Source: Peterkaempfera bronchialis (GTDB lineage: Bacteria; Actinomycetota; Actinomycetes; Streptomycetales; Streptomycetaceae). Taken from it: a stretch of 64,000 nt of DNA. Positions within the stretch are counted from its first letter, which is position 1. Every line of letters starts with the position of its first letter. The stretch is taken from positions 6,750,232 to 6,814,231 of the forward strand of contig NZ_CP031264.1 in NCBI RefSeq assembly GCF_003258605.2, written 5' to 3'. The notes under the pieces were generated by a model, which did no database searches, was not told where the DNA came from, and worked only from the letters and a program-made list of their open reading frames with translations. Positions 5,101 to 61,733 of the stretch are shown in pieces. Both the position numbers and the translations under genes were made by a program.

Positions 5101-5331
5101 CATCACTCCAGGGAGCGTGCGGGGGGCGTCCGGGACACCGCATCCGGACCCGGGACGCATCGCCGCCGTCGGCGACGCCTTGCTTCTCCATGCCCGTTTC
5201 CCGACGGTCGGTCACGGTGTTCGCCCATATGGCCGCCGGGCGTCGCCGCAACCAGGACACGGGGTGACCATCGAATCCGGGCCGGGCGACGACCCGGCCC
5301 CCTACCGGCTTCCTCGAAGGGAACGTGCATC
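5101..5331. promoter_or_regulatory. Divergent promoter region of the spore-pigment cluster
   Basis: These 231 bp separate the start codons of the hydroxylase (minus) and the SchA/CurD gene (plus) and must hold both promoters. In S. coelicolor the equivalent whiE region has developmentally timed promoters, one of them sigma-F dependent. I could not pick out a convincing -10/-35 pair for either strand by eye. The ribosome site AAGGGA of the plus-strand gene is at 5317-5322. Confidence 0.5.
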
Positions 5332-6468
5332 ATGACCGCCCTGTCCGAAACCCAGGAGTCCCCGCCGTCCGCCGACCGTGACACCACCCGCCTGCGGGTG
5401 GTCCTGCTCTGCGATGTCAACGATGGCCAGCAGCAGCGCTTCCTCGACGCCTACGAGCAGATCCGCCACCAGGTGGCCGACATCCCCGGCCACATCAGCG
5501 ACCAGCTCTGCCAGTCCATCGAGGAGCCCACCAAGTGGCTCATCACCAGCGAGTGGGACAGCGCCTCCCGCTTCCTCTCCTGGGTGGACAGCGCCGAGCA
5601 CCGCGAACTGGTCAAGCCGCTGCACGGCTGTGTCCGCGACACCCGCTCGCTGCGCTTCGCCATCGCCCGGGAGACCCCCGAGCAGCCCGCCGGCCGGTCC
5701 AGGGCCGCCGCCGCCCAGGGCCGTCCCGCCGCTGCGGGACCGCAGCCCGGCGGACTGGTGCGCCATGCCCTCACCTTCACCGTCAAGCCCGGCAGCGAGC
5801 AGGACGTCGCCGAGATCCTGGCCGGCTACCGCTCGCCGCGCGCCCGGGTCGACGAGAACACCCGGCTGCTCCGCACCTCGCTCTTCATGCACGGCAACCG
5901 CGTGGTGCGGGCGGTGGAGGTGGAGGGCGACCTCGCCGCCGCGCTCCGCCATGTCGCCCAGCAGCCCGAGGTACGCGCCGTCGAAGAGGCCGTCAACCCC
6001 TACCTGGAGGAGCCCCGCGACTTCGCCGACCCGGCCTCCGTCCGCTCCTTCTTCGCCCGCGCCGCGCTGCCCGCCGCCCACCACGCCGAGGCGCCCGCCG
6101 CCGCCCACGGCGAGCTGCGCCGCCGCGCGCTGCTCTACCCGGTGCGCCGGGGCTGCGCCCAGGTCGCCGCCAAGCTGCTGGCCGGGCATGACGACCAGGC
6201 CGTGCAGGACCCGGCGAACCCGCTGGTCCGCTCCACCGTCTTCCAGCGCGACGACGTGCTGGTGCGGATGGTCGACCTGCGCGCGGACCTCCCCGAGGAT
6301 CCGGCCGTCGCCGCCGGTGTCGGCCGGGGCCCGGCCGCAGCGGAACTCACCCACCTGCTGGAGCCCGGCGAGGACCTGCTGCTCTCCACGGCGGACGGCC
6401 TGAAGCGCTTCCTCGCCGACTACGACCTGGCGCTGGTCACCGACCGCAGCTCGGCCCAGGAGTCCTGA
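5332..6468 (+). CDS. whiE-ORFI: SchA/CurD-like spore-pigment protein with N-terminal ABM domain
   Basis: A 378-residue protein whose residues about 20-112 look like an antibiotic-biosynthesis-monooxygenase (ferredoxin-like) domain (RLRVVLLCDVNDGQQQRFLD to SLRFAIA). Two SchA/CurD-type repeats follow at about 140-235 (GLVRHALTFTVKPGSEQ) and 258-355 (LRRRALLYPVRRGCAQ). SchA/CurD domains are named from the S. halstedii and S. curacoi spore-pigment clusters, and the role is unproven. The ATG at 5332 follows AAGGGA; a longer open frame upstream is antisense to the hydroxylase and is not coding. It begins the operon that continues through the PKS genes. Confidence 0.88.
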   Translation: MTALSETQESPPSADRDTTRLRVVLLCDVNDGQQQRFLDAYEQIRHQVADIPGHISDQLCQSIEEPTKWLITSEWDSASRFLSWVDSAEHRELVKPLHGCVRDTRSLRFAIARETPEQPAGRSRAAAAQGRPAAAGPQPGGLVRHALTFTVKPGSEQDVAEILAGYRSPRARVDENTRLLRTSLFMHGNRVVRAVEVEGDLAAALRHVAQQPEVRAVEEAVNPYLEEPRDFADPASVRSFFARAALPAAHHAEAPAAAHGELRRRALLYPVRRGCAQVAAKLLAGHDDQAVQDPANPLVRSTVFQRDDVLVRMVDLRADLPEDPAVAAGVGRGPAAAELTHLLEPGEDLLLSTADGLKRFLADYDLALVTDRSSAQES

Positions 6469-6531
6469 CCGCGCAGCCGACGCACCCCGTACGACCGCCA
6501 CCTGACCGACCGCCACCTGGAGGCAACGCCC

Positions 6532-6966
6532 ATGACCACCACACCACCACGCATCGTGGACCTGCACGAGATCGAGCCCAACCGCCGGCGCGGCGGTGAC
6601 CTGCGCGCCATGCTGACCCCCACCACCGTCGGAGCGACCAGCGGGTTCATGGGCGTGGCGATCGTGCAGCCCGGCGAGCGCATCGGAGAGCACTACCACC
6701 CCTATTCCGAGGAGTTCGTCCATGTCGTCTGCGGCGCCCTCGAAGTGGACCTGGACGGCGTCGCCTACCCCCTCGCCCCCGACCAGGGGCTGATGATCCC
6801 CCGCAATATGCGGCACCGCTTCCGCAATGTCGGCCGGGTGGAGGCCCGGATGGTCTTCCACCTCGGCCCGCTGGCGCCGCGCCCCGAACTCGGGCATGTG
6901 GACACCGAGGAGACCGAAGCCGCCGGGGCCGGCGGCCCGGCCTCCGCCGTGGAGGCCCGAGCGTGA
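6532..6966 (+). CDS. whiE-ORFII: Cupin-fold spore-pigment protein
   Basis: A 144-residue single-domain cupin. The first cupin motif, [21 protein letters not shown], supplies His54, His56 and a Glu at 60 or 61. The second motif, ending NMRHRF, supplies His95. Together these are a likely metal site. Homologues are ORFII of whiE-type clusters, thought to assist cyclisation or later tailoring. The ribosome site is GGAGG just before the ATG. Its stop overlaps the KS-alpha start by 4 bases (GTGA), so translation is probably coupled. Confidence 0.88.
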
Positions 6967-8231
6967 CCCGGCGGGTTGCGGTCACCGGGCTGGGCGTCGT
7001 CGCTCCCGGGGGCGTGGGCGTGCCGGCGTTCTGGGACCTGCTCACCGCCGGGCGTACCGCGACCCGCGGTATCACGCTCTTCGACCCCGAGGGGTTCCGC
7101 TCCCGCATCGCCGCCGAGTGCGACTTCGACGCGGCGGCGTGCGGAGTGGACCGGCAGCGCGCCCGACGTGCCGACCGCTATGTGCAGTTCGCCCTGGCCG
7201 CCGCCGGTGAGGCGCTGCGCGACTCCGGGCTGGAGACCGCCCGCGAGGACCCGTGGCGGATCGGGGTCTCGCTGGGTACGGCGGTGGGCGGCACCACCCG
7301 GCTGGAGCACGACTATGTCGAGGTCTCCGGCTCCGGGCAGCGCTGGGGGGTGGACCACCTGCGGGCCGGACCCCATCTGCACCGGGCCTTCTCGCCCAGC
7401 GCACTCGCCTCCGAGGTGGCCGAGGACATGGGCGCCCACGGCCCGGTGCAGACCGTCTCCACCGGCTGCACCTCCGGCCTGGACGCCGTCGGCTACGCCT
7501 TCCACGCCATCGAGGAGGGAAAGGCCGATGTGATCCTGGCCGGTGCCTCCGACTCGCCGATCTCGCCGATCACGGTGGCCTGCTTCGACGCCATCAAGGC
7601 CACCTCCACCCGCAACGACGACCCGGCGCACGCCTCCCGGCCGTTCGACGCGGAGCGGGACGGCTTTGTGCTCGGCGAGGGAGCTGCGGTGCTGGTACTG
7701 GAGGAGCTGGAGCACGCCCGGCGGCGCGGCGCCCGCGTCCTCTGCGAGATCCGGGGCTTCGCCACCTTCGGCAACGCCTACCACATGACCGGGCTGACCC
7801 GGGAGGGCCTGGAGATGTCGCACGCCATCGACACCGCGCTGGCGGACGCCCGGATCGACCCGGGCGACATCGACTACGTCAACGCCCATGGCTCGGGCAC
7901 CCAGCAGAACGACCGCCATGAGACCGCCGCGGTCAAGCGGTCGCTGGGGGCGCACGCCTACGAGACCCCCATGAGCTCCATCAAGTCCATGGTGGGCCAC
8001 TCGCTGGGGGCGATCGGCGCGATCGAGCTGGCCGCCTGCACCCTGGCGCTGGCCCGGGGCGTCGTACCGCCCACCGCCAACTACGAGACCCCCGACCCCG
8101 AGTGCGACCTCGACTACGTGCCCCGTACGGCCCGCGAGGTGCCGCTGCGGACCGTGCTCTCGGTGGGCAGCGGGTTCGGCGGCTTCCAGTCGGCGGTGGT
8201 CCTGGACCGGGGCAATGGGAGGACAGCATGA
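6963..8231 (+). CDS. whiE-ORFIII: Type II PKS beta-ketoacyl synthase, KS-alpha
   Basis: The 422-residue ketosynthase makes the carbon chain of the spore pigment from malonyl-ACP. The catalytic Cys169 lies in [15 protein letters not shown]. The decarboxylation residues are His309 ([12 protein letters not shown]) and His346 ([15 protein letters not shown]), with Lys341 also present, so the active site is complete. The GTG start overlaps the cupin stop by 4 bases, and its own stop overlaps the KS-beta start by 4 bases, which favours equal production of the two heterodimer subunits. Confidence 0.96.
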
Positions 8232-9469
8232 GCAGCGAACGCCGCGCGGTGGTGACCGGCATCGGGGTGGTGGCCCCGAACGGCATCGGCGCCGACGCCT
8301 TCTGGAAGGCGACCCGGGAGGGCGTCGCGGTCCTGGACCGGGTCACCAGCGAGGGTTGCGAGGAACTGCCGCTGCGGGTGGCCGGCGAGGTACGCGGCTT
8401 CGACCCGCAGGAGGCGGTGGAGCCCCGGTTCGTCGTGCAGACCGACCGGTTCAGCCACTTCGCCATGGCCGCCGCCGACCTGGCGCTGGCCGACGCCGGA
8501 CTGGACACCCACGGCGGAGCGCCCTTCGACATCGGGGTGGTCACCGCAGCCGGCTCCGGCGGCGGTGAGTTCGGCCAGCGCGAGCTCCAGCAGCTGTGGG
8601 GCAAGGGACCCCGGTTCGTCGGCCCGTACCAGTCGATCGCCTGGTTCTACGCGGCCAGCACCGGTCAGATCTCCATCCGAGGCGGTTTCAAGGGGCCCTG
8701 CGGGGTGCTGGCCAATGACGAGGCCGGCGGCCTGGACGCCCTCGCGCACGCCCGCCGGGGCATCCGGCGCGGTGCGCGGGCGGTGGTGGTCGGCGCCGCC
8801 GAGGCTCCGCTGGCCCCGTACTCGGCCGTCTGCCAGCTCGGCTACGAGGAGCTGAGCCGGTCCGAGGACCCGGCCCGCGCCTACCTGCCGTTCACCGCCG
8901 ACGCCTGCGGGTTCGCCCCCGCCGAGGGCGGCGGGATGCTGGTGCTGGAGGAGGCGGCGGCGGCCCGCGAACGCGGCGCGACCGTCCGCGCCCTGGTCGC
9001 CGGGCACGCCGCCACCTTCACCGGGACCGACGGCTGGCAGCGGTCCCGCGACGGGCTGGCGCACGCCGTCCGGGCAGCCCTGGACGAGGCGGGCTGCGCG
9101 CCCGAGGAGGTCGACGTGGTCTTCGCCGACGCGCTCGGCGTCCCCGAGGCCGACCGCGCCGAGGCCCTGGCACTGGCCGATGTGCTCGGCCGGCGTGCCG
9201 CCCGCGTCCCGGTCACCGCGCCCAAGACCGGCATCGGCAGGGCGTACTGCGGCGGACCGGTGCTGGACGTGGCCGCCGCCGTACTGGCCATGGAGAGCGG
9301 GGTGGTGCCCCCCACGCCGAACGTCGTGGACATCTGCCACGACCTCGACCTGGTGACCCGCACCGCCCGTCCCGCCGAGCTGCGCACCGCCCTGGTGCTC
9401 AGCCGGGGACTGATGGGCTGCAACGCCGCACTCGTACTGCGTCGGGGCAGCGGCACCGACCGGCCGTGA
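8228..9469 (+). CDS. whiE-ORFIV: Type II PKS chain-length factor, KS-beta
   Basis: The 413-residue partner of KS-alpha controls chain length and carries no nucleophile. The segment aligned with the KS-alpha Cys motif reads [13 protein letters not shown], so position 165 is Glu. In most chain-length factors this position is a conserved Gln. The ATG at 8228 overlaps the KS-alpha stop (ATGA); the longer open frame upstream of it lies inside KS-alpha. The KGPCG segment before the motif is typical of chain-length factors. The heterodimer should act with the ACP encoded 55 bases downstream. Confidence 0.95.
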
Positions 9470-9524
9470 CCGGGGCGCCCGCGCCTCTGCCCAACGGCCG
9501 CCACCTGCGAAGGAGAACCCTCTG

Positions 9525-9782
9525 ATGAACGAAGCTCTGACCTTCGACGAACTGGCCTCGCTGATGAAGTCCTGCGCGGGTGTCGCCGTCGACCCCGGAG
9601 AGCTGGAGAGCCGGCCCACCGCGACCTTCGAGGAGTTCGGGCTGGACTCGCTCGGCCTGCTCGGGGTCGTCGCCGCGCTGGAGAACCGCCACGGCACGCC
9701 GATCGGGCCGGGCGCCGAGTCCTGCAAGACCCCGCACGAGTTCGTGGCCCTCGCCAACGACCGCCTCACCTCAGGAGTCTGA
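9525..9782 (+). CDS. whiE-ORFV: Type II PKS acyl carrier protein
   Basis: An 85-residue acyl carrier protein that holds the growing polyketide as a phosphopantetheine thioester. The attachment site is Ser42 in EEFGLDSLGLLGVV. An AAGGAG ribosome site lies before the ATG. The stop is 3 bases before the aromatase ATG, so it is read as part of the same operon. No phosphopantetheinyl transferase gene is nearby, so a chromosomal one must act on it. Confidence 0.95.
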   Translation: MNEALTFDELASLMKSCAGVAVDPGELESRPTATFEEFGLDSLGLLGVVAALENRHGTPIGPGAESCKTPHEFVALANDRLTSGV

Positions 9783-10280
<498 letters not shown>

Positions 10281-10307
10281 CGCACCGACCGCCCGGCCCC
10301 GGCCCCC

Positions 10308-10349
10308 GGGCCCGGCCGACGGCGGACCACTACGCCGTCGGCCGGGCCC
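10308..10349. terminator. Perfect 17-bp hairpin inside the spore-pigment operon
   Basis: The arms GGGCCCGGCCGACGGCG (10308-10324) and its exact complement (10333-10349) flank the 8-base loop GACCACTA. No U-tract follows. It lies between the aromatase stop and the cyclase start, so it may be a partial terminator, an mRNA-stabilising 3' end, or an attenuator that lowers cyclase expression. Confidence 0.75.
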
Positions 10350-10385
10350 GACCCGACACTCTCCGCTTCCGAGGAGGCACCCACC

Positions 10386-10718
10386 GTGTACCGATCTCTG
10401 ATCGTCGCCCGTATGAAGCCCGACGCCGCCCCCGACATCGCCGAGGTCTTCGCCGCCTCCGACCGTGGCCAACTGCCGCACCTGATCGGGGTGCGCGGCC
10501 GCAGCCTGTTCCAGTTCGGCGAGGTCTACCTGCACCTCATCGAGGCCGACCGGCCGCCGGGCCCCGAGGTGGCCAAGTACGCCGGCCACCCGGAGTTCCG
10601 GGACGTCAGCGAGCGGCTCCAGCCGTTCGTCTCCGCCTACGACCCGCTGACCTGGCAGGAACCCAAGGACGCCATGGCCCGCGAGTTCTACCGCTGGGAG
10701 CGTGACCGGACCGCGTGA
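10386..10718 (+). CDS. whiE-ORFVII: TcmI-family polyketide cyclase
   Basis: A 110-residue ferredoxin-like cyclase of the TcmI/WhiE-ORFVII family that closes later rings. Family features are MYRSLIVARMKPDAAPDIAEVFAASD at the N-terminus, the LFQFGEVYLHLIEA strand and the C-terminal DAMAREFYRWE segment. The GTG at 10386 follows GAGGAG with good spacing. It is the last plus-strand gene of the cluster and runs tail to tail into the O-methyltransferase gene 19 bases away. Confidence 0.92.
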   Translation: MYRSLIVARMKPDAAPDIAEVFAASDRGQLPHLIGVRGRSLFQFGEVYLHLIEADRPPGPEVAKYAGHPEFRDVSERLQPFVSAYDPLTWQEPKDAMAREFYRWERDRTA

Positions 10719-10737
10719 TCGGCCCCGCCGGCGACCC

Positions 10738-11769
10738 CTACTCGGGTACCACGCCGTCGAAGGCGTGCAGGTAGGGGTTGACCGGGCGGACGTCGCCGAC
10801 CTTCAGCCCGGCCTCCTCCATCAGCGCCACCAGGCTGTCCTGGGTGTGCTTGCGGCCTCCCACGTTCAGCAGGAGCAGCAGGTCCATGGCGGAGGTGAAC
10901 GGCATCGAGGCGGTCTCGTCCACCAGGTTCTCGATCACCAGCACCCGCGCGCCCGGCCGGGCGGCGGCGACCGCGTTGTGCAGGGTCGCGCGGGTGGAAC
11001 GGTCGTCCCACTCCAGGATGTTCTTGATGATGTAGAGGTCCGCCTGCACCGGGATCTCCCGGCGGCAGTCGCCCGGCACCAGGTCCACCCGCGAGGCCAG
11101 CGCGCCGCCGTCGCGCAGCCGGGGGTCGGCGTGGGCGATCACGTCGGGCAGGTCCAGCAGGGCGCCGCGCAGGTCCGGGTTGCGCTCCAGCAGGCCCGCC
11201 AGCACATGGCCCTGGCCACCGCCGATGTCGGCGACCACGGAGACGCCCCGCAGGTCCAGCAGCTCCGCGATGTCCTGGGCGGACTGCCGGCTGGAGTGGG
11301 TCATCGCCCGGTTGAAGACCTCCGCCGACTCGGGCGCGTCCTCGTGCAGGTAGCTGAAGAAGTCCTTGCCGTGCAGTTCGCCGAAGACATGGCCGCCGCT
11401 GCGCACCGCCTCGTCCAGCCGGGGCCATGCCTCCCAGGTCCACGGCTCGGTGGTCCAGAGCGACACATAGCGCATCGAGCGCGGGGTGTCCTCGCGCAGC
11501 ATCCGCGACATCTCGGTGTGGACGAACCGCCCCTCGCCGTCCTCGGCGAAGACGCCCTGGCAGGTCAGCGCGCGCAGCAGGCGGCGCAGCGCCTGCGGGT
11601 CGGCGTCCACGGCGGCGGCCAGCTCGCCGGCCGTGGTGGGCGTGTCGCCGAGCGCGTCGGGGACGCCGAGGCGGACGGCGGCGCGGACGGCCGCCGCCGA
11701 GGCGGCGCTGAAGGCCAGTTCGCGCAGTCGCATGGCTGCGGACGGGGTGGCGGTCGCCGGGCTGTCCAT
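10738..11769 (-). CDS. SAM-dependent O-methyltransferase, TcmN/DmpM type
   Basis: A 343-residue small-molecule O-methyltransferase. Residues about 12-100 form the winged-helix dimerisation domain (LAFSAASAAAVRAAVRLGVPDAL). The SAM motif VVADIGGGQGHVLAGLLERNP is at about 178-198, and the later motif IIKNILEWDD has the usual position of the catalytic-base region. The ATG at 11769 follows AAGGGG. It sits directly beside the last spore-pigment cyclase in convergent orientation. The S. coelicolor whiE set has no such gene as far as I know, so a tailoring methylation of the pigment is a reasonable inference, not a proven role. Confidence 0.85.
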   Translation of the reverse strand: MDSPATATPSAAMRLRELAFSAASAAAVRAAVRLGVPDALGDTPTTAGELAAAVDADPQALRRLLRALTCQGVFAEDGEGRFVHTEMSRMLREDTPRSMRYVSLWTTEPWTWEAWPRLDEAVRSGGHVFGELHGKDFFSYLHEDAPESAEVFNRAMTHSSRQSAQDIAELLDLRGVSVVADIGGGQGHVLAGLLERNPDLRGALLDLPDVIAHADPRLRDGGALASRVDLVPGDCRREIPVQADLYIIKNILEWDDRSTRATLHNAVAAARPGARVLVIENLVDETASMPFTSAMDLLLLLNVGGRKHTQDSLVALMEEAGLKVGDVRPVNPYLHAFDGVVPE

Positions 11770-12304: not shown

Positions 12305-12736
12305 TCAGGACGCCCGCCAGCCCAGCCAGCGGGTGACCTCGACCGCGATCACCGCACCCGCCGGGGGCCGCTCCCGGTACTGCGGGTACTTGGCGCAGAG
12401 CAGCGCCACGGCCCGTGCCCGCAGCACCGGATCGCCGTCCGCCGGGACCACCCGGGCCCGCCCCCGGGCCTGCGCCCACCAGAGCAGCGCCCAGTCCTCC
12501 TGGTAGCCGCCGTCGGCCAGCAGGCAGACGGCGGGGTTGGCGGCGATGTCGGCGAGCCTGCGCAGCCGGGTGGACCGCTTGGGCTTGTGGTCGACGGCCG
12601 TGACCACGGTGTCCCCGTCCACCGCGAAGACCACCGGCACCAGATGCGGGCGGCCCTCCGCGTCGGCGGTGGCCAGCCGGGCGATCCGGCAGGCCGCGAA
12701 GCAGACCCGCGCGCGGGGCGGCTCCAGGCTCGGCAT
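12305..12736 (-). CDS. PPOX-class F420-dependent oxidoreductase (TIGR03668-like)
   Basis: A 143-residue split beta-barrel flavin/F420-binding protein. The pattern FAACRIARLATADAEGRPHLVPVVFAVDGD is the N-terminal signature of the family, followed by KRSTRLRRLADIAANPAVCLL, where KPKR and the Arg-rich turn contact cofactor phosphate. The C-terminal VEVTRWLGWRAS matches the family ending. The substrate is unknown. It is probably co-transcribed with the luciferase-like F420 enzyme that ends 17 bases upstream, so both may use the same reduced cofactor pool. Confidence 0.85.
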   Translation of the reverse strand: MPSLEPPRARVCFAACRIARLATADAEGRPHLVPVVFAVDGDTVVTAVDHKPKRSTRLRRLADIAANPAVCLLADGGYQEDWALLWWAQARGRARVVPADGDPVLRARAVALLCAKYPQYRERPPAGAVIAVEVTRWLGWRAS

Positions 12737-33739: not shown

Positions 33740-34816
33740 TCAACCGGAGGCCGACAGACTGAAGCGGTACTCGGTACGGCTGCGCAGCACACCCCCCGGC
33801 CGCAGCACCGTGCTGGGGTACTCCGGGCGGTTGGGCGAGTCCGGCAGATGCTGCGTCTCCAGGCAGACGGCGCCGTACCGCTCATGGCGGCGGCCCGCAG
33901 CATCCCTCAGCGAGCCGTCCAGCAGGTTGCCCGTGTACACCTGGAGGCCCGGCTCGGTGGTCCAGACCTCCATCGCCCGTCCGCTCACCGGATCCTCCAA
34001 CCGGGCGGCGCGGCGCGGCCCCGCACCGCCCTCCGGCGGACGGAGCACCCAGCAGTGGTCATAGCCGCCCGCCGCCCGCAGCTGCGGATCGGGCGCGTGC
34101 AGGCGCTCGCCGATGGCATGCGGGGTGGTGAAGTCGAAGGGCGTACCGGCCGTCGCCGCGAGCGGGCCGTACGGGATGCCCGCCCCGGTCACCGGGAGGT
34201 ACCGGTCGGCGTCCAGCAGCAGCACCTGGTCGGCCACGGTCGGACCACCCGAAAGGTTGAAGTAGGCATGGCTGGTCAGATTGACCACGGTGGGCCGGTC
34301 GGCGGTGGCCCGGTAGTCCAGCGCCAGCGTCCCTCGGGCGTCCAGGCGGTAGGTGACCGAAACCTCCAGCGCCCCCGGGAAGCCCATGTCGCCGTCCGGG
34401 CTGCGCAGCGTCAGCCGCACCGCCGCCGCGCCGTCGTCCGGCACCGGCGCCGCCGTCCAGACCCGCCGGTCGAAGCCCTCGGGGCCGCCGTGCAGGGCAT
34501 GCCCCCGGTCGTTCACCGGCACCCGGTGCTCCCGGCCGTCCAGGGTGAAGCGGCCCTCGGCGATCCGGTTGGCATAGCGGCCCACCAGCGCCCCCAGATA
34601 GGGGCTCGGGCCGGCGTAGTCGTCGACACCGGGCAGCGAGAGGACCACCGACCGGGTCCCGCCCCACCGGTCCGGCACCTCCAGGGCGTGCAGGACGCCG
34701 CCATAGGTGAGCACCTCGGCGCGCACTCCGGAGCCGGAGTCCAGATGCCAGCGCTCCACCGGAGTGCCGTCCGGAGCGGTGCCGAAGGGGGAGCTGCGCA
34801 GCACGGGTCGGGGCAT
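33740..34816 (-). CDS. galM: Aldose 1-epimerase (galactose mutarotase)
   Basis: A 358-residue mutarotase that interconverts alpha and beta anomers of free sugars. Family segments are TYGGVLHALEVPDRWG, GRYANRIAEGRFTLDG, the substrate His in GHALHGGPEGFDRRVW, the NLTSHAYFNLSG motif and the catalytic Glu in AVCLETQHLPDSPNRP near residue 320. The ATG at 34816 follows GAGG. It is the last gene of the sugar operon, 36 bases after lacI, and would act on the sugar released by the GH2 enzyme and imported by the ABC system. Confidence 0.95.
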   Translation of the reverse strand: MPRPVLRSSPFGTAPDGTPVERWHLDSGSGVRAEVLTYGGVLHALEVPDRWGGTRSVVLSLPGVDDYAGPSPYLGALVGRYANRIAEGRFTLDGREHRVPVNDRGHALHGGPEGFDRRVWTAAPVPDDGAAAVRLTLRSPDGDMGFPGALEVSVTYRLDARGTLALDYRATADRPTVVNLTSHAYFNLSGGPTVADQVLLLDADRYLPVTGAGIPYGPLAATAGTPFDFTTPHAIGERLHAPDPQLRAAGGYDHCWVLRPPEGGAGPRRAARLEDPVSGRAMEVWTTEPGLQVYTGNLLDGSLRDAAGRRHERYGAVCLETQHLPDSPNRPEYPSTVLRPGGVLRSRTEYRFSLSASG

Positions 34817-34852
34817 GGAGGTCCTCGGGGAAGGGGGTGGCGGGCGGCCGGA

Positions 34853-35869
34853 TCAGCGACGGCGGCCCAGGGTGGATTCGCGTACCACCAGGTCGTGCCC
34901 GGGCCGGACCCGGCGCGGCTCGGCGGTGGGCGCACCCGCCAGCCGCTGGACCACGCAGTCGACCGCCTGGCGGGCGATGGCCTGCTTGTCGGGCGAGACC
35001 GTGGTCAGGGTGGTCGCGCCGTAGCGGCTCTCCTCGATGTCGTCGAACCCGACCACCGCGATGTCCTCCGGCACCCGCAGTCCGCGCTCGGTCAGCACCC
35101 GCATCGCACCGATGGCCTGGAGGTCGTTGTACGCGAAGACGGCGTCCGGCCGGGAGTCGCGGTCCAGCAGGTCGGCCATGGCCTGGGCGCCGTCCGCGCG
35201 GCCGTACCCGGCGGCGGTGGCCACCAGCGAACCGTCATGCGGCAGCCCGGCCGCCGACAGCTCCTCCCGCCACCCCTGGAGGCGCAGATGGGCGGGCTGC
35301 CGGGCGCTCTCCCGCCGCGCCCCGAGGAAGGCGATCCGCTGCCGCCCCATCCCGGCCAGGTGCCGCACCGCACTGCGGGCCGCCGCCACGTTGTCGATCG
35401 CGATGTGGTCGTACGGCGCGTCGTACTCGCGCTCGCCCAGCAGCACCAGCGGTGCGGTGTCGGTGCGGCCGAGCAGGTCCTCGGTCTCCAGCTCGATGGG
35501 GGAGAGGATCAGCCCGTCGATGACCTGGGCGCGGAACCCCTGGCAGACCAGCATCTCCTTCTCCCGCACCCCGGCGGTGTGGTCCAGCAGCACGGTGTAG
35601 TCATGGCGCGCCGCGGCGTCGATGACCGCGCCGGCCAGCTCGGCGAAGTACGGGTTGCCCAGCTCGGGGACGGCCAGCGCGATGATGCCGGTGCGGCCCT
35701 TGCGCAGATGGCGCGCGGTCAGGTTGGGGCGGTAGCCGAGCTCGTCGATCGCCTGCTGCACCCGGGCGCGCATCGCCGGGGTGACATGCGGGTAGTCGTT
35801 CACGACATTGGAGACGGTCTTGATGGACACTCCCGCTCGCAGCGCGACGTCCTTGAGGCTGACGCCCAC
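34853..35869 (-). CDS. LacI-family repressor of the sugar regulon
   Basis: A 338-residue LacI/GalR regulator. The DNA-binding helix-turn-helix is VSLKDVALRAGVSIKTVSNVVND (residues 3-25), then the hinge HVTPAMRARVQQAIDELGYRPNLTARHLRKGRT. A periplasmic-binding-like sensor domain follows. The GTG at 35869 follows GGAGGAG. It is encoded between the ABC permease and galM. Its likely sites are the AACGTT-centred boxes upstream of the binding-protein gene and the GH2 gene, with a sugar as inducer. Confidence 0.93.
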   Translation of the reverse strand: MGVSLKDVALRAGVSIKTVSNVVNDYPHVTPAMRARVQQAIDELGYRPNLTARHLRKGRTGIIALAVPELGNPYFAELAGAVIDAAARHDYTVLLDHTAGVREKEMLVCQGFRAQVIDGLILSPIELETEDLLGRTDTAPLVLLGEREYDAPYDHIAIDNVAAARSAVRHLAGMGRQRIAFLGARRESARQPAHLRLQGWREELSAAGLPHDGSLVATAAGYGRADGAQAMADLLDRDSRPDAVFAYNDLQAIGAMRVLTERGLRVPEDIAVVGFDDIEESRYGATTLTTVSPDKQAIARQAVDCVVQRLAGAPTAEPRRVRPGHDLVVRESTLGRRR

Positions 35870-52154: not shown

Positions 52155-52279
52155 CCCTGCCGCTGTGCCGGGCTGCTGCCGGGCGGTGCGGGCCGTCGGT
52201 TTCCCGCGCCGCCCGGTGCTCCACCCTGCCGTCCACGCCTCGGTGATCCACTTCCGCGGCCCGGCTCTAGGGTACGGGT

Positions 52280-53059
52280 ATGAGTGCTCAGGCATACCTC
52301 TCCGAACTCTTCTCGCTCGATGGCCGGGTCGCCGTGGTCACCGGCGGCAGCTCCGGCATCGGCCGGGCCATCGCAGGGGCCCTCGCGCAGGCGGGGGCGA
52401 GCGTGGTGGTCGTGGCCCGCAGGGAGGCGGAGTTGGCCGCCACGGTCGACGAGCTGACCGCCGCCGGCTGCCGGGCGGCCTGGGTCAGCGCCGACCTGGG
52501 CACCCGCGACGGTGTGCGCGCGGCGGCCGAGGCGGCGACCGAGGCGTTCGGGGAGCCCGACATCCTGGTGAACTCCGCCGGGATCAACCTGCGGCCGCCG
52601 ATGGGCGAGTTGGGCGACGAGGTGTGGGACACCACGATGGCGGTGAACCTGGAGGCGCCCTTCCTGCTGGGGCAGCGGTTCGGTCCCGGCATGGCCGAGC
52701 GGGGCTTCGGGCGGATCATCCACATCACCTCCCAGCAGGCGCATCGGGCGTTCGTCCAGAGCGGCGCCTACGGGGTGTCCAAGGGGGCACTGGAGTCCCT
52801 GGCCCGTTCACAGGCCGAGGCATGGTCGCCGTACGGCGTCACCTGCAACACGCTGGTGCCGGGCTTTGTGATGACGCCGCTCAATGTGCGGCTCTCCTCC
52901 GACCCGGAGAAGGTGGCGGCGCTGGCCGCACGCACGCTGATCGGGCGCAATGGGCTGGCCGAGGACTTCGCGGGCGCGGCGGTGTTCCTGGCCAGCCGCG
53001 CCTCCGGCTACGTCACCGGACAGGCCGTCTTTGTCGACGGCGGGCTCTCCGTGCACTGA
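52280..53059 (+). CDS. SDR oxidoreductase (gluconate 5-dehydrogenase-like)
   Basis: A 259-residue classical SDR. TGGSSGIGRAIAGALAQAGA (residues about 21-40) binds NAD(P), NSAGINLRPP follows, the catalytic Ser is in IIHITSQQ, and Tyr/Lys are in GAYGVSKGALESLARS. The C-terminus has the family ending SGYVTGQAVFVDGGLSVH. TAGGGT at 52268-52273 lies 6 bases before the ATG and there is no ribosome site, so the message may be leaderless. The substrate is unknown; gluconate or polyol dehydrogenation fits the family. Confidence 0.9.
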   Translation: MSAQAYLSELFSLDGRVAVVTGGSSGIGRAIAGALAQAGASVVVVARREAELAATVDELTAAGCRAAWVSADLGTRDGVRAAAEAATEAFGEPDILVNSAGINLRPPMGELGDEVWDTTMAVNLEAPFLLGQRFGPGMAERGFGRIIHITSQQAHRAFVQSGAYGVSKGALESLARSQAEAWSPYGVTCNTLVPGFVMTPLNVRLSSDPEKVAALAARTLIGRNGLAEDFAGAAVFLASRASGYVTGQAVFVDGGLSVH

Positions 53060-53299
53060 GCCTGCCGTTGTCCAGTGCCGCAGGAGTCGTGCAGCTCCAC
53101 CGTGCGTTTTCCGAGGGTGGGCACGCCTGGTTCTCTCCACGAGTCCGGACAGCAGATGTACGGCACTCCGGGAGGCATCCCGTCCCTGGCAGGCGTGGCT
53201 GTAGGGCCCGGCCCCGTGGGTGAGGGCGGGGCCCGGGCCGGTGGCTTGATCGGTCGGCGGGTCTTGATCGCTGCCGAGCCTGCTGATTGGGTGGCCGGC

Positions 53300-53860
53300 A
53301 TGACTGAGCTCGGACCCGTCGCCTGGCCACCTGCCCCGATCAGGACCGAGAGGCTCGTGCTCCGTGAGCCCGAGGCCCGGGACCGTGCGGCGTTCATCGA
53401 GCTGCTGGCGTCGCCAGAGGTGCACACCTACCTCGGCGGCCCCCGCGCGCGTGACGAGCTTGAGCGCGAGATGCCCGAGGCGCCCGGGCGGTGGCCCGGG
53501 AGTTTCGTCGTTGATCTCGACGGGGCGATGATCGGCCAGATCCTGCTCAGGAGGGCAACGGAGCACCGTCGCCCGGCTGCCGCGGGGAAGGCCGATCTCG
53601 GCTACCTCTTCCTGCCGCGAGCGTGGGGACTCGGGTACGCCGCCGAGGCGTGCACGGCGGCACTCGACTGGTTCGACGGCGTCCTTCCCGGCGAGCCGGT
53701 GGTGCTCACCACCCAGACCGCCAACGTCGGCTCGATGCGCCTCGCGGCAAAGCTGGGGTTCACCGAGGTGGAGCGGTTCCATGCCTGGGACGCCGAGCAG
53801 TGGCTCGGCCTGCGGTCCCCGGTCACGCCCTCCGACCGCCAGAGCAGCCAGAACGGCTGA
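53300..53860 (+). CDS. GNAT acetyltransferase (Acetyltransf_3)
   Basis: A 186-residue N-acetyltransferase of the RimJ/RimL type. RTERLVLREPEARDRAAFIELLASPEV is the start, LGYLFLPRAWGLGYAAEACTAALDW carries the acetyl-CoA loop (Arg/Gln-x-x-Gly-x-Gly/Ala type), and ANVGSMRLAAKLGFTEVERFHAWD the last motif. The ATG at 53300 is used; the frame is open 75 codons upstream without a good site. The 53060-53299 gap shows no other gene, but a near-palindrome of GGGCCCGG type lies near 53205-53240. Confidence 0.88.
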   Translation: MTELGPVAWPPAPIRTERLVLREPEARDRAAFIELLASPEVHTYLGGPRARDELEREMPEAPGRWPGSFVVDLDGAMIGQILLRRATEHRRPAAAGKADLGYLFLPRAWGLGYAAEACTAALDWFDGVLPGEPVVLTTQTANVGSMRLAAKLGFTEVERFHAWDAEQWLGLRSPVTPSDRQSSQNG

Positions 53861-53958
53861 GACGAGATCCCCGCCCGCCCACCGTGGACGACCACCACAG
53901 GCCGAGCGCGTCCCAGGGTGCGTTTCGCTGTTATCTTCGGGGGCCGGAGGTGGTGCCC

Positions 53959-56271
53959 GTGTCCGAGTGGTTCGACGCGGTCGATGCGCTGCTGGCCCGC
54001 GTGGAGGCCGGAGGAGACCTGCCGCCGCCGGAGGAGCGGGAACGGCTGCGCAAGGCCGCACGGCTGACCCAGGGGGACGTGGCCCAGGCCCTCCAGGTGC
54101 GGCGGGAGACCGTGGTGGCCTGGGAGTCGGGCCGTACCGAGCCCCGGCAGCCCAAGCGGGGAGCCTACGCCCGCCTGCTGGAGGGCCTGGCCGCCCGCTT
54201 CCCCGCCCCGGTACGGCCCTCCGGGCCTTCCGCAGCTGCCCCTGCGACGTCCGCCCCTGTGGACCCGCCCGTTGCCGGTCCTGCCGCCGACGGCCCCGAC
54301 CTGGACGCCTCCGGGGTACCGGTGACCGCGCCGCCGGAGCCGTGCGTGCGATGCGGCAGGCCGAGCCCGTACCGTTCCGGTGGCCGTCCCCGGCACCTGG
54401 GCGACTTCTGCGCCCCCGCCGCGCCCGCGGCCACCCCTGCGTCCAACCCTGAGCCCCCGTCAGCACCAGCGGCAGCACCCACCCCCGTGCCTGCGCCCAC
54501 TCCCGCGCCAGCGCCAGCGCCCACCCCCACCGTCGCCCCCGCGCCCACTCCGCCCCCCGCCCCCGGCCGGACCCGGGCGGTCGCCGCCCCCACCCCCGCA
54601 GGGGACACCCCGACCCGGGCCGGGGAGCGCTTCCCCAACGGTCCGCTGGCCGTACTGGACGGCGACGGCACCGCCCACCTCGCCGACGGCCGCACCCTGC
54701 CCTGCCCGGCCGGCACCGTCCCCGCCCTCGCCGACTGGGCCCTCACCACGGCGGGGATCGGCGCCGCCCGGCTGCACCGCTCCGGCAAGGACGGCGACCC
54801 GCTCGTCGTCCTCACCGCCGCCGCCGCCCAACGGCTCGGCCTACCCCCCGAACTCCAGGACCGCCGCACCCTGCGCCTCCCCGAGAACCACCGGGTGGTC
54901 AAGCAGTTGGCGACGGCGGAGTGGAAGCTGACCCGGCGCGGATTCGGCCCCTGGGCCCGCATCTACCGCCCGGCCAGCGACGGACGGCGCCACTGCGTAC
55001 AGTTCGCCGTGCTGCCCTGGGACGCCCTCGACCCCCGCGCCTGGGGCGACGCAGGCAGCTTCCCCGCAGCCGAACTGGCCCGGGTCCTCGGCGCCTACGC
55101 CGCCCGTGTCCTGACCCCGCGCGGCTCCACCGCCGTCACCGGCCTGGAACTCATGACCGCGCTGCGCCCACCCACCCGCGCGGTCCGGGACGAGGCCACC
55201 GGTGCCTGGACGTCCGGGCCGGTACCCGGCTCCCTGACCGCCCCGGTGGACCCGGCGCCGCCGGAGGCCCCCGCCGAGCACCCCGCCGCAGTCGGCCGCG
55301 CGGTCGGCGATGTGCTCGACGAGGAGGCCTACGAGTGGCACCGCGACCCGGCGCTGCTCACCGAGGAGGAGCGGTCCCGCCCCTTCGCGGTCGGCCTGGA
55401 CGTCAACACCGCCTTCCTCGCCGCCGCCAACCGGCTGACCGTCGGCCTCGGCGCACCCCGCCGGGTCACCGCGCCCGCCTTCGACCGCAAGACGCCCGGC
55501 TGCTGGCTGGTCGACCTCTCCGGCGTCCCCACCGACCCCCGCCTCCCGTCCCCGTTCACCCCCACCGGCGAACCCCCCACCGGCCCGGGCTGGTACGCCA
55601 CCCCCACCGTCGCCTACGCCGTGGAACTCGGCGCCCGGGTGCAGCCCGTCGAGGCATGGATCCGGCAGGAGTCCGCCCCCTACCTGGACCCCTGGCACGC
55701 CCGGCTGCGCGACGCCTACCTTGCCACCATGGCCGACCTCGGCGTCACCAAGGACCTCGGGGAGGCCGCCTACCTGGACGCCATGGACCGCCACAAGCAG
55801 GCCGACCCGGCGATGGCCGCCGTCCTGTCCGCGATCAAAGCGACCGTCAAGGGCGGTATCGGCAAGCTGCGCGAACGCCCCCAGGGCGCGGGCTACCGGC
55901 CCGGGGAGCGCTGGCCGGCCCTGGAACGCCCCACCTGGCGCCCCGACATCCGCGCCGCCGTCATCGCCACCGCCCGGGTGAACATGCACCGCAAGATGGC
56001 CAGGACCGCAGCCGCCGCCGACCTCTACCCGCTCGCGGTACTCTCCGACTGCGCCGTCTACCCCAGCTCCGGCCCCACCCTCCACCACCTCCTCCCGCAC
56101 ACCCCCGACGGCAGCCCCGCCCCCGGCACCTTCCGCCTCGGCGTCAGCCCCGGAATGGTCAAGCACGAGGGCACCCAGACCATGGCCTGGGCACTCGACC
56201 TGCTGGAGCAGGGTTACAACCCCGCCCGCCACATCAAGGGCGGCGACGCCGTCCTGGACGAAGGAGAGTGA
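53959..56271 (+). CDS. tap: Telomere-associated protein Tap
   Basis: A 770-residue DNA-binding protein that recruits the terminal protein to the 3' overhangs of linear Streptomyces replicons. The XRE-type helix-turn-helix is at about 28-62 (ARLTQGDVAQALQVRRETVVAWESGRTEPRQ). A CVRCGRP...GDFC zinc-ribbon-like segment follows, then a Pro-Ala linker with APTPAPAP units. The long Tap core (about 230-770) includes GLDVNTAFLAAANRL and KATVKGGIGKLRERPQG. The GTG at 53959 is preferred, 8 bases after GGAGG; GTGs at 53950 and 53953 are too near. Known Tap proteins are about 740 residues. It is followed immediately by tpg. Confidence 0.93.
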   Translation: MSEWFDAVDALLARVEAGGDLPPPEERERLRKAARLTQGDVAQALQVRRETVVAWESGRTEPRQPKRGAYARLLEGLAARFPAPVRPSGPSAAAPATSAPVDPPVAGPAADGPDLDASGVPVTAPPEPCVRCGRPSPYRSGGRPRHLGDFCAPAAPAATPASNPEPPSAPAAAPTPVPAPTPAPAPAPTPTVAPAPTPPPAPGRTRAVAAPTPAGDTPTRAGERFPNGPLAVLDGDGTAHLADGRTLPCPAGTVPALADWALTTAGIGAARLHRSGKDGDPLVVLTAAAAQRLGLPPELQDRRTLRLPENHRVVKQLATAEWKLTRRGFGPWARIYRPASDGRRHCVQFAVLPWDALDPRAWGDAGSFPAAELARVLGAYAARVLTPRGSTAVTGLELMTALRPPTRAVRDEATGAWTSGPVPGSLTAPVDPAPPEAPAEHPAAVGRAVGDVLDEEAYEWHRDPALLTEEERSRPFAVGLDVNTAFLAAANRLTVGLGAPRRVTAPAFDRKTPGCWLVDLSGVPTDPRLPSPFTPTGEPPTGPGWYATPTVAYAVELGARVQPVEAWIRQESAPYLDPWHARLRDAYLATMADLGVTKDLGEAAYLDAMDRHKQADPAMAAVLSAIKATVKGGIGKLRERPQGAGYRPGERWPALERPTWRPDIRAAVIATARVNMHRKMARTAAAADLYPLAVLSDCAVYPSSGPTLHHLLPHTPDGSPAPGTFRLGVSPGMVKHEGTQTMAWALDLLEQGYNPARHIKGGDAVLDEGE

Positions 56272-56274
56272 CCC

Positions 56275-56817
56275 GTGGGGGAGATCGACCAGGGCATGGA
56301 ACGCGCCCTGTACACCAAGCCGATCCCGCGCTCCGACGCCGCCCGCCTCCGCTTCCTGCTCCGCCAGGAGAAGGGCTCCACCCGCGCCCTGGCCGTCCGC
56401 CTCGGCGTCTCCCAACGCGCCGTCCAGCACTGGCTCAAGGGCGACCGGCACCCCCGACCGGACGCCGGAGCCCGGATCGAGGCGGAGGTGCGCCGCAGCT
56501 GGCAGCCCCGCGTCCGCCGACGGCTGCGCAGGCAGGCCGAGGCCGCCGGCATGGTGATCCACGCCCGCGCCCAGTTCGGCTTCACCGCCGCCCCCGGCTC
56601 CACCGACGACCCCCGGCTGCGCCTGATCACCCAGCACATCCCGGCCGACACCGCCGCCGCCCTGTTCGCCGCCCGGGACGCCGGCGCCCCCGAGGCCCGG
56701 CAGGCCGGCATCATCGCCGAGGGCCTCCAGGAGGCGTACTTCAAGGACGGCGGCCGCCGCGCCCCCGGGCTGCTGGTCGAATTCACCGGCATCGACTTCA
56801 TCGACTTCGGCATCTGA
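56275..56817 (+). CDS. tpg: Telomere terminal protein Tpg
   Basis: A 180-residue protein that primes end-patching and is covalently joined to the 5' ends of linear Streptomyces DNA. The N-terminus ERALYTKPIPRSDAARLRFLLRQEKGSTRALAVRLGVSQRAVQHWLKG (about 10-56) contains the helix-turn-helix typical of Tpg. RRQAEAAGMVIHARAQFGFTAAPGSTDDPRLRLIT holds the region of the DNA-linking Thr (candidates Thr104 or Thr110). The C-terminus is acidic and aromatic (FTGIDFIDFGI). The GTG is 3 bases after the tap stop, with AAGGAGA at 56261-56267. Length and order match known tap-tpg operons. Confidence 0.94.
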   Translation: MGEIDQGMERALYTKPIPRSDAARLRFLLRQEKGSTRALAVRLGVSQRAVQHWLKGDRHPRPDAGARIEAEVRRSWQPRVRRRLRRQAEAAGMVIHARAQFGFTAAPGSTDDPRLRLITQHIPADTAAALFAARDAGAPEARQAGIIAEGLQEAYFKDGGRRAPGLLVEFTGIDFIDFGI

Positions 56818-57128
56818 CCAGTCCCCGGCCGGCGGCAGCACTCGCGGTCTTGTGACCGAGCGCTTCATTTGGCCAGTGAGCGCCGCTGGACACCGGAAGG
56901 TCGTTCTCTGTCGCCGCCTGTGCCTGTTGTCGCGTGGCGGGCGGAGCCATGTGCGGGCCGCCTCGGCGTAGGGCTCAAGGTAGGTGAGACGGAATGGGGA
57001 GGGGTCGGGAAGAGTGTCCCCCTCGATGCGCCCGCGGAGGGTGCCCTGGTCGGCAGGAGTCCGCTGGGGCGGACGCCCCCTTGCCGCTGCGGCCTGAAGA
57101 ACCCGGCGAACGCAATCCGGTCACAGCA
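56818..57128. other. 311-bp gap after tpg, no supported gene
   Basis: A short open frame of 87 codons from a TTG at 56869 has no ribosome site and poor composition. Small inverted repeats such as GTCCGC-TGGG-GCGGAC (about 57059-57074) are present, but nothing like the dense palindromes of Streptomyces telomeres. Confidence 0.4.
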
Positions 57129-57638
57129 CTAGCCGGCGTAGGGGTTGCCACCGAGCCAGGTGGTGCCGTCGATCAGTTCGCGCACCGCGTCCAAGTGACC
57201 GCTGTGGCAGGCGACTTCGGTGAGCACGTGGATCAGGATGTGCCGCACGTCAGGCAGCCGCCAGGTCGGCCAGATCTCCACGGGCCAGGCAGCGGGCTCC
57301 TGTTCGGGCGCGGCGGCGGCGAGCACGGCGTCCGCGCGCGCGATGGCCGCCCGGTAGTCGGCGAAGACCTCCTCGGCGCTTATCCCCTCGGGTACGTACC
57401 AGTGCGCCTCCGCGCCCGCCGTGAGCTGTCCGGCCACATCCGGCTCGCCCGCGATCACCCCGGGGAACCAGAAGCGTTCGACATCCAGGGTGAGGTGGCG
57501 CAGCAAGGCCAGGCAGCTCCAGCCGCTGGGCAGCACCGGCCGCCGCAGATCCTCCTCCGAGAGTCCTTCGAGGATGCCGACGATGTGCTCGCGCTGGCGG
57601 TCAAGGGCGCCCTTGAGGGCGTCGAGTTCGGCGTTCAC
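57129..57638 (-). CDS. DinB-family protein (DUF664-like)
   Basis: A 169-residue four-helix DinB/YfiT-type protein. It has EHIVGILEGLSEEDLRRPVLPSGWSCLALLRHLTLDVERFW with the first metal His, then DVRHILIHVLTEVACHSGHLDAVRELIDGTTW with the other His ligands. Members often bind thiol cofactors such as mycothiol. The GTG at 57638 overlaps the stop of the SRPBCC gene by 4 bases, so the two are coupled. Confidence 0.88.
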   Translation of the reverse strand: MNAELDALKGALDRQREHIVGILEGLSEEDLRRPVLPSGWSCLALLRHLTLDVERFWFPGVIAGEPDVAGQLTAGAEAHWYVPEGISAEEVFADYRAAIARADAVLAAAAPEQEPAAWPVEIWPTWRLPDVRHILIHVLTEVACHSGHLDAVRELIDGTTWLGGNPYAG

Positions 57639-60572: not shown

Positions 60573-60620
60573 CGCCGACACCACCGCCGCCGGGCCGGTC
60601 CTCGCCGTAGCGCGAGGGCC

Positions 60621-60710
60621 GGCCCGGCGCCGTTCGGCCCGGCGCCGTTCGGCCCGGCGCCGTTCGGCCCGGCGCCGTTCGGCCCGGCGCCGTTCGGCCC
60701 GTCACCGTTC
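60621..60710. repeat. 15-bp tandem repeat array between convergent genes
   Basis: Five exact copies of GGCCCGGCGCCGTTC occupy 60621-60695. A variant copy (GGCCCGTCACCGTTC) runs to 60710, and a decayed one reaches the Lrp stop at 60717. Each unit contains the CGGCGCCG palindrome, so transcripts could form multiple hairpins and act as a terminator for both genes. Confidence 0.88.
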
Positions 60711-60716
60711 GGCGCG

Positions 60717-61733
60717 TCACCGGAGGCGCAGGGTCGCGGCGGCCTTGTAGGTGCGCAGCACCGGCGCGGTCTCGATCCGGGCGATTGCGTCCAAGGCCAC
60801 CTCGTGGATCAGGTAGCGGTGCAGTTCCTCCGCGTCCCGGCAGAGCGCGTGCGCGACCAGGTTCGTCGGGCCGGTCGTGGCCGCGACCAGGGCCAGCTCC
60901 CGGTGCCCGGCCAGTTCGGTGGCGACCGCGTCCAGGTGTGCGGGCGCGACCTGCATCCACAGCAGCGCCGACACGGTCACGCCCAGCGCCGACGGTTCGA
61001 TGTCCACGTCGAGGAAGATCGCGCCGCACGCCCGCAGTCCGGCGAGCCTGCGGGCCACCGTGGAGGCGGTCGAACCGGTCGCGGCGGCAAGCTCCGCATA
61101 GCTGAGCCGGGCGTTGTCGCGCAGTGCGTCCAGCAGCAGGCGGTCGGCGCCGGTGAGCAGGTACGGCGGACCGTCCGGCTGGGATTTCGTCGCCCCGCTG
61201 TTCGGGCCCGGCTCCGGGCCGGTGGCGCTCTGGGCACGCAGCCGGGCCCGCTGGGCGGCGTCGAGGGTCTCGACGCGTCCGCGCCAGGCGGTGGGCCCGC
61301 CGAGGTAGGTGTGCAGGAGGTAATGCGCCGACACCGCCGTGATCCCGGCGGTGCGCTGGATGTCGCGCAGCAGCAGCGCATGCGCGTCGGGGCCGGTGGG
61401 CGCGGTGTGGATGATCGCGACGATCTCCGTGCCGCCGGAGGTCAGCCGCACCCATGAGGTGTCGGGGCGGCGTGCGAGTGCGACCGCGATGTCATGCGCG
61501 GCGCGCGTCGCGGCGGTCAGCCGTACGAACCACTGGTGGGTCCCGGAGCTGCGCGGCGTCGGCAGCGCGACCACGCGAAGGCCCGCCTCCGCGTAGAGGC
61601 GGCGATAGCGGCGCACCACGGTCTGGGTGGAGCAGCCGAGGATGTCGGCGACGAGCGTGAACGGCGCCCGCCCGTCGACTTGCAGGGCATGGATCAGGCC
61701 GCGGTCCAGGTCGTCCAGTACGAGCACATCCAC
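60717..61733 (-). CDS. Lrp/AsnC-family regulator with two HTH domains
   Basis: A 338-residue duplicated Lrp-type regulator. The first HTH is LDRGLIHALQVDGRAPFTLVADILGCSTQTVVRRYRRL (residues about 9-46), and the second is DRLLLDALRDNARLSYAELAAATGSTASTVARRLAGLRACG. Each is followed by a RAM-like ligand-binding region (TEIVAIIHTAPTGPDAHALLLRDIQ and LALVAATTGPTNLVAHALCRDAEELHRYL). This double form is common in actinobacteria. The GTG at 61733 is chosen from the start of similarity. It diverges from the MFS gene by 177 bases and probably controls it. Confidence 0.9.
   Translation of the reverse strand: MDVLVLDDLDRGLIHALQVDGRAPFTLVADILGCSTQTVVRRYRRLYAEAGLRVVALPTPRSSGTHQWFVRLTAATRAAHDIAVALARRPDTSWVRLTSGGTEIVAIIHTAPTGPDAHALLLRDIQRTAGITAVSAHYLLHTYLGGPTAWRGRVETLDAAQRARLRAQSATGPEPGPNSGATKSQPDGPPYLLTGADRLLLDALRDNARLSYAELAAATGSTASTVARRLAGLRACGAIFLDVDIEPSALGVTVSALLWMQVAPAHLDAVATELAGHRELALVAATTGPTNLVAHALCRDAEELHRYLIHEVALDAIARIETAPVLRTYKAAATLRLR

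Follow-up and report, generated by a model that had tools for sequence, protein, structure and literature searches.

The tap and tpg genes of this Peterkaempfera bronchialis DNA most probably form the chromosome's working end-patching operon, located subterminally on the right arm, as is usual, and we put the probability of this reading at roughly 0.85. It rests directly on the identity of the two genes, their intactness, their copy number and their map position, and is also supported by the loss of synteny at the pair and by an inverted repeat of the contig ends. The system itself is familiar and its location unremarkable, and its mixed history is of mild interest.

The operon, the whiE-type cluster and their chromosomal positions

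The window, by which we mean the whole 64-kb stretch of DNA analysed, spans positions 6,750,232–6,814,231 of a single contig of 7,090,212 bases (7.09 Mb). Its features are listed below in window coordinates; G002 is a second species of the genus and L122 is Streptomyces sp. WAC05374.

3472–11769, no single strand: whiE-type cluster, type II polyketide, predicted spore pigment (gene calls, family matches and ketosynthase (KS) counterparts)
3472–52157, no strand: conserved arm, collinear with gaps with 352040–320450 of G002 contig C111 (blastn and tblastn)
52157–53945, no strand: interval of 1.8 kb just upstream of tap in which collinearity with G002 stops
52280–53059, plus strand: short-chain dehydrogenase (SDR) gene, with an 84% identical gene directly before tap in L122
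53959–56271, plus strand: tap, 770 aa, GTG start at 53959, stop codon ending at 56271
54043–54153, plus strand: helix-turn-helix (HTH) domain of Tap, residues 29–65 (Pfam HTH_3, 26.8 bits, cut-off 23)
54199–54630, plus strand: Pro/Ala-rich variable linker of Tap, about residues 81–224, of low identity
56275–56817, plus strand: tpg, terminal protein, 180 aa
56359–56466, plus strand: HTH domain of Tpg, residues 29–64 (Pfam HTH_3, 26.0 bits, cut-off 23)
56602–56604, plus strand: codon of Thr110 in the GSTDDP motif of Tpg (homologue alignment and position)

An earlier note on this DNA described tap and tpg as intact with an HTH in each, and the family models agree. Tap matches NCBIfam NF047542 (telomere_Tap) at 1061 bits over residues 4–761 (cut-off 600), Tpg matches NF047541 (telomere_Tpg) at 220 bits (cut-off 90), and both HTH_3 domains exceed the Pfam gathering score. 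The linker of Tap is delimited by low identity to eight other Taps. The tap gene lies directly upstream of tpg on the plus strand with 3 nt between them, the third-position GC of tpg is 0.967, and promoter and terminator scans of 53000–57500 returned nothing. Alignment together with the published description places Thr110 and Asp111 of Tpg as a Thr followed by an acidic residue, as a deoxynucleotidylation site requires. Thr110 is probably the counterpart of Thr114, the deoxynucleotidylated residue of S. lividans Tpg, which is described as flanked by Ser113 and Asp115 (PMC3572947); the alignment was of homologues other than the S. lividans chromosomal Tpg.

The note had also proposed placing the window on the full chromosome and counting tap-tpg copies. 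Two whole-genome searches find one full-length Tap and one HTH-only match, so that 53959–56817 is the sole full pair in the genome, accompanied elsewhere by a lone second Tpg. On the contig, dnaA is at 3,501,436 of 7,090,212, the midpoint of the chromosome, and tap-tpg is at 6,804,190–6,807,048, 283 kb short of the right end as assembled. The whiE-type KS is at 6,757,194, and both it and tap-tpg lie on about the outer tenth of an arm of normal length.

The assembled right end (7,077,971–7,090,212, 12.2 kb) is an inverted copy of the left-hand segment 75,161–87,411, with 12,255 aligned columns, 0 mismatches and 17 gap positions; comparison of the outer 60 kb of each end gave no terminal repeats, and the inverted copy appeared once the left side was extended. 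Relative to the end of a homologous linear plasmid of Kitasatospora sp. NBC_00039, the left end begins about 390 bp further in, and it matches the end region of that plasmid at 74.5% over 600 bases. These likenesses of the left end to a linear-plasmid end and of the right end to the left fit the linear replicon that had been predicted from tap-tpg. On the simplest interpretation, there is a terminal inverted repeat of about 87 kb and the assembly contains only its left copy complete, the outer 75 kb or so probably being absent from the assembled right end, although the inverted repeat may instead be 12 kb and no longer. Because the right end stops 12.2 kb inside the inverted copy, the right telomere would lie near 7,165,372 and the true distance from tap-tpg to the end would be about 358 kb, a distance that we infer, as the right telomere itself is unseen. 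The pair then stands at about 90% of a 3.6-Mb arm (92% without the end correction), and two of the suggestions made in the note, namely that the pair has moved inward and that the arm is short, are wrong or superfluous.

The cluster at 3472–11769 has the order divergent FAD hydroxylase, ORF I-like, cupin-like, KS-alpha, CLF, ACP, cyclase, cyclase and O-methyltransferase. It appears to follow the whiE order of ORF I, ORF II, KS, CLF, ACP and two cyclases with a divergent hydroxylase, from which several of the labels are taken. Four of the nine proteins have NCBIfam matches (hydroxylase, KS, CLF and, weakly, methyltransferase), PRK07314 for the KS alone reaching its cut-off and the other three falling below theirs; the remaining five, all small ORFs, have no NCBIfam match. 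The first cyclase scores about 228 bits against the solved polyketide cyclases 3tvr, 3tl1 and 2kf2, presumably the WhiE cyclase of S. coelicolor. G002, G024 and G017 share this gene order, with the methyltransferase absent in G017, and KS counterparts 77–95% identical occur in 23 of 36 other genomes and in 9 of 14 further genomes. The cluster thus appears to be whiE-type, with spore pigment as its predicted product. The distance from cluster to tap is 42.2–43.2 kb, in agreement with the figure of about 43 kb given previously.

The same note held this proximity to be odd, taking whiE as chromosomal core, a premise that does not transfer. In all five Streptomycetaceae genomes with KS and dnaA on one contig, the whiE KS lies at 8% (G013), 33% (G033), 61% (G019), 68% (G011) and 91% (G000, the genome holding the window) of the arm. 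Two genomes of another family and of unknown topology were left out of this series (G038, with dnaA at base 553 and KS at 1.23 Mb, and G045, with dnaA at 5.95 Mb and KS at 0.30 Mb). The S. venezuelae spore-pigment cluster is given at 7.40–7.48 Mb, where the last cluster listed ends at 8.21 Mb (PMC8788739). For S. albus J1074 the absence of both whiE and tpg has been reported (PMC3937824). Fourteen relatives have both a Tap above the cut-off and a KS with 77% identity or more; the two share a contig in five of them, with gaps of 74 kb (G024), 114 kb (G017), 0.99 Mb (G027), 3.1 Mb (G013) and 7.3 Mb (G011), and are on separate contigs in the other nine, G002 included.

Tap exceeds the cut-off in 21 of 61 genomes; dnaA was searched in nine of these 21, and four have the two on one contig (G000, G011, G013 and G030, the contig start being taken as the chromosome end in G030). 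Tap is at 84–98% of the arm in all four, 59–659 kb from the contig end, the distances in the three genomes other than our own being 59, 437 and 659 kb. A terminal position is not a law, since in G017 a 2.67-Mb contig extends at least 914 kb to either side of Tap, and the Tap of Streptomyces sp. 150FB is about 2.96 Mb inside a 9.63-Mb scaffold. It is whiE, not tap-tpg, that is variable in position, and here whiE is far out. On the map of the whole chromosome the puzzle of their proximity therefore mostly dissolves, and the local oddity vanishes.

Disagreement between the Tap and Tpg trees

The two proteins of the pair have different nearest relatives. The window Tpg is 81% identical to the Tpg of G002, the next best of 104 sequences being 64%, and in a tree of 103 sequences the two are sisters with support of 96/90 (90/84, and not starred, in a 43-sequence set). 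They fall within a group of nine (100/99) that also holds four named plasmid sequences and the genome's own lone tpg. The Tpg of G001, the third species of the genus, falls elsewhere, and both the Tap and the Tpg of G001 pair with those of G033. The window Tap is 62% identical to that of G002 and 55–69% identical to seven other Taps, and a tree of 99 Taps puts those of the three species in three places. A clade of the window and G002 Taps is rejected (p-AU 0.0027, 40 sequences), as is a grouping of the window Tpg with those of L090 and L091, the loci of the nearest Taps (p-AU 0.00015, 43 sequences). Tap sequences without the C-terminal part and Tpg matches shorter than 150 residues were left out of the trees.

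Because the two trees disagree, part of the pair was probably exchanged, and exchange of one half of the operon is likely from these sequence comparisons. We give about even odds to a history in which exchange within the variable arm brought in the whole pair, or Tap alone, from another linear replicon and left a hybrid, working operon; such a history adds to the best explanation and is not opposed to it. In its favour, besides the rejected clades, are a Tpg lineage common to G002 and linear plasmids, the joint pairing of G001 Tap and Tpg with those of G033, and the position of the G002 pair on a different contig from that species' whiE region. On the other side, the grouping of the window Tap with those of L090 and L091 is weak (83/39), and the test barely rejects an alternative in which the window Tap groups with G002, G035 and two Kitasatospora plasmids (p-AU 0.041). 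The G002 Tap has a long branch, the clades tested were named after the trees had been seen and most sequences were gathered by Tap similarity, none of the ten flanking proteins is plasmid-like, and the 64-kb window has no tRNA that could have served as an integration site. The suggestion that an integrated pair came from a plasmid has evidence on both sides: the Tpg belongs to a plasmid-rich clade and the trees conflict, but the flanking proteins show no plasmid character.

More tentatively, the operon may be a partner-swapped one, with a Tpg inherited within the genus and a Tap from another lineage serving a non-archetypal telomere. If so, Tap-Tpg specificity would be loose enough for exchange of one half, which would counter the view that telomere, Tap and Tpg have to move together. 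Exchange has a precedent in a forest-soil Streptomyces population, for which replacement of a telomere by a plasmid is proposed and in which one Tpg set has a pseudogene Tap (PMC7205883). The Type I and II Tap-Tpg sets described there resemble the present case in differing between close relatives and in the presence of non-archetypal telomeres, with telomere switching and plasmid exchange proposed. Here, in contrast, species of one genus are compared and the two genes of one operon give different trees. Within this genus the position of the telomere system, its Tap and, between two of the three species, its Tpg differ, which provides a practical case for testing how close the match between telomere, Tap and Tpg has to be.

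Telomere type, end patching and the lone second tpg

Matches to the telomere-proximal sequence come from Kitasatospora NBC_00039, G035 and G027. No resemblance was found between the NBC_00039 end and the ends of SLP2 and pSA3239, which begin CCCGCGGAGCGGG, and the telomere here is, by this comparison, probably not of the SLP2 type. The telomere-proximal 640 bp occur in 3 of the 61 genomes, our own included. Among the 18 genomes represented in the Tpg tree, they are found in two of the three in the window's Tpg clade and in one of the 15 outside it, an association that proves nothing (p about 0.06, or about 0.23 without our own genome). Kitasatospora NBC_00039 also fits this link, and was itself found by the same sequence. 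Compared with the archetypal tap-tpg of S. coelicolor and S. lividans, the present pair is alike in gene order, sizes, family models, HTH in both proteins, a Thr in the priming region and a subterminal place on a chromosome that is probably linear, and differs in having a telomere-proximal sequence of the NBC_00039 kind.

By analogy with published work on relatives, end patching here would proceed as follows. Replication from the mid-chromosomal oriC to both ends would leave 3' single-stranded overhangs, the folded overhang would be bound by Tap, which would recruit Tpg, and Tap would add the first nucleotides to Tpg, probably at Thr110. The gap would then be filled by DNA polymerase, Tpg staying covalently on the 5' end. 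In the descriptions given in PMC4513846 and PMC3572947, Tap binds the folded 3' overhang, primes synthesis on Thr or Ser in Tpg and lengthens the product to 13 nt, leaving a polymerase to complete the strand. The single tap-tpg copy would serve both ends in trans; since SLP2 requires the chromosomal tap in trans (PMC3572947), service of several ends by one tap is established in a relative. On this scheme whiE would be near the pair solely because in this lineage it lies far out on the conserved arm and tap-tpg occupies the inner edge of the variable terminal region.

It is possible that the ends are patched by other, undescribed proteins, as no Tap exceeds the cut-off in 16 of the 37 genomes of the family (40 of 61 overall) and many genomes without Tap and Tpg are reported (PMC8743542). 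That the telomere is probably not of the SLP2 type also counts against the main explanation.

The second Tpg is encoded at 34,481–35,029 from the left end and is 55% identical to the window Tpg; the whole-genome searches give no Tap match near it. It is 93% identical to a Tpg on an S. coelicoflavus plasmid and 80% identical to that of the SLP2 right arm, with which it groups in the Tpg tree and which, by its position, is tpgSLP2.38. The gene ends head-on against a gene of 370 aa, as does its SLP2 counterpart against a gene of equal length. Its priming position is occupied by Ser, and its third-position GC is 0.765, compared with 0.967 for the window tpg. Since tpgSLP2.38, with its atypical codon usage, did not support linear plasmid replication and is described as a pseudogene (PMC3572947), the lone second tpg, which resembles it in identity, solitude, Ser and low third-position GC, is probably a pseudogene as well. 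The Ser alone is not decisive, since pFRL1.6, another lone tpg with Ser, was functional (PMC3572947). The second tpg differs from tpgSLP2.38 in setting: the latter is in a 15.4-kb arm common to SLP2 and the S. lividans chromosome ends, whereas the former is 34 kb from the end, inside the inferred repeat of about 87 kb, and may thus have a copy at both ends.

Synteny and genes around the pair

Collinearity with contig C111 of G002, which carries the whiE region of that species, includes the conserved arm and the 120 kb that precede it, and is lost just upstream of tap. One further collinear marker (84% protein identity) is found just outside the window at the equivalent of 64904–65308, about 8 kb past tpg, so that a segment of about 12.7 kb around tap-tpg corresponds in position to about 16 kb of different genes in G002. 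Beyond the marker there are scattered matches to G002, and the 283 kb distal to the pair have no collinear run with C111 (to 467,116) or with C200, the contig that carries tap-tpg in G002. The assembly of G001, in about 800 contigs, gives no placement of the pair. Here the pair thus lies on the inner border of the variable region, in agreement with the decay toward chromosome ends reported in PMC8627663, in a place that is not common to the genus. A fixed position in close relatives had been raised as a sign that the location is ordinary; it is ordinary in kind, but the place itself is not fixed, as G002 shows.

In another possible history, tap-tpg originally lay closer to the telomere and has since been displaced inward as the terminal region grew or was exchanged. 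This would suit both the 283 kb past the pair without a collinear run in the G002 contigs compared and the fast turnover of terminal regions described in PMC7205883, but we consider it unlikely, as 283–358 kb is within the range of the other genomes. Integration here of a plasmid-borne tap-tpg as a unit is the least probable history: G002 lacks the pair at the collinear place, the far-side marker near 64.9 kb is still collinear and 413 plasmid records carry Tap homologues (186 of these with coverage of 80% or more of the protein), but there is no partition, transfer or replication gene among the ten flanking proteins, far-side collinearity depends on that one marker, and the spot is not core.

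Nine of the ten flanking proteins have Pfam matches (AraC, glyoxalase, SDR, GNAT, mycothiol transferase, cyclase-like, GH44, Lrp and MFS). A conserved block from whiE to tap was considered and rejected, as the intervening genes are not common to G024 or G017, in which whiE and tap share a contig and are ordered and oriented as in the window. Between the two, G024 has two scattered matches in swapped order, 65% to the gene at 12305–12736 and 42% to a transporter, and G017 has two matches alone, at 36–37%. A conserved tap-tpg neighbourhood was likewise rejected. Proteins encoded at 44–66.5 kb, without tap and tpg, gave two matches (at least 45% identity and 60% coverage) among 107 loci around other Taps, many of them short-flanked: the SDR beside tap in L122 (84%) and the mycothiol transferase in L161 (47%).

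Chromosome ends

The stretch 75161–87411 of the chromosomal contig (G000:C1; loci L076/L077) and the stretch 7077971–7090212 (L008) form an inverted repeat with 0 mismatches, and the latter copy extends to the right contig end. This probably represents a terminal inverted repeat, some 87 kb long, that was collapsed in the assembly. Among the sequences searched, matches to the telomere-proximal sequence (L005:1–640) are limited to the Kitasatospora NBC_00039 plasmid and the genomes G035 and G027. Within this sequence a roughly 36-nt motif (GTTGACGATGTG..CGC) is repeated.

Towards the left end there is a further tpg:

G000:C1:34481–35029 (L006:14481–15029), lone tpg, SLP2.38 type

This gene adjoins Mu-like transposase and AAA genes, and closer to the contig end are SLP2-like DUF3732 and ABC-3C genes.

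Order of tap and tpg

The tpg gene lies directly downstream of tap in 94 of the 105 Tap loci, is in an overlapping long frame in 5 and was not found in another 5. The sole upstream case among the 105 is G024 (L176, G024:C14:80001–100000), in which the only Tpg found precedes Tap. On the NBC_00039 plasmid just a C-terminal part of Tap, annotated as hypothetical, was found ahead of Tpg (L025:30116–31132).

Repeats around tap-tpg

Two repeats are present in the window:

53421–53448 and 61288–61315, 28-nt inverted repeat, 89% complementary
60605–60724, 15-bp tandem repeat (CGGCCCGGCGCCGTT), about 6–8 units

The arms of the inverted repeat bracket 7.8 kb containing tap-tpg, an arrangement that could allow inversion or could be due to chance. 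The tandem repeat has a GH44 gene on one side and an Lrp-type regulator on the other.

A possible peptide cluster

By eye, the region G000:C1:7034783–7041439 (L010) holds a short ORF ending in VNV repeats, neighboured by nucleotidyltransferase-like, TldD-like and ABC transporter genes, and this may be a peptide-product cluster.
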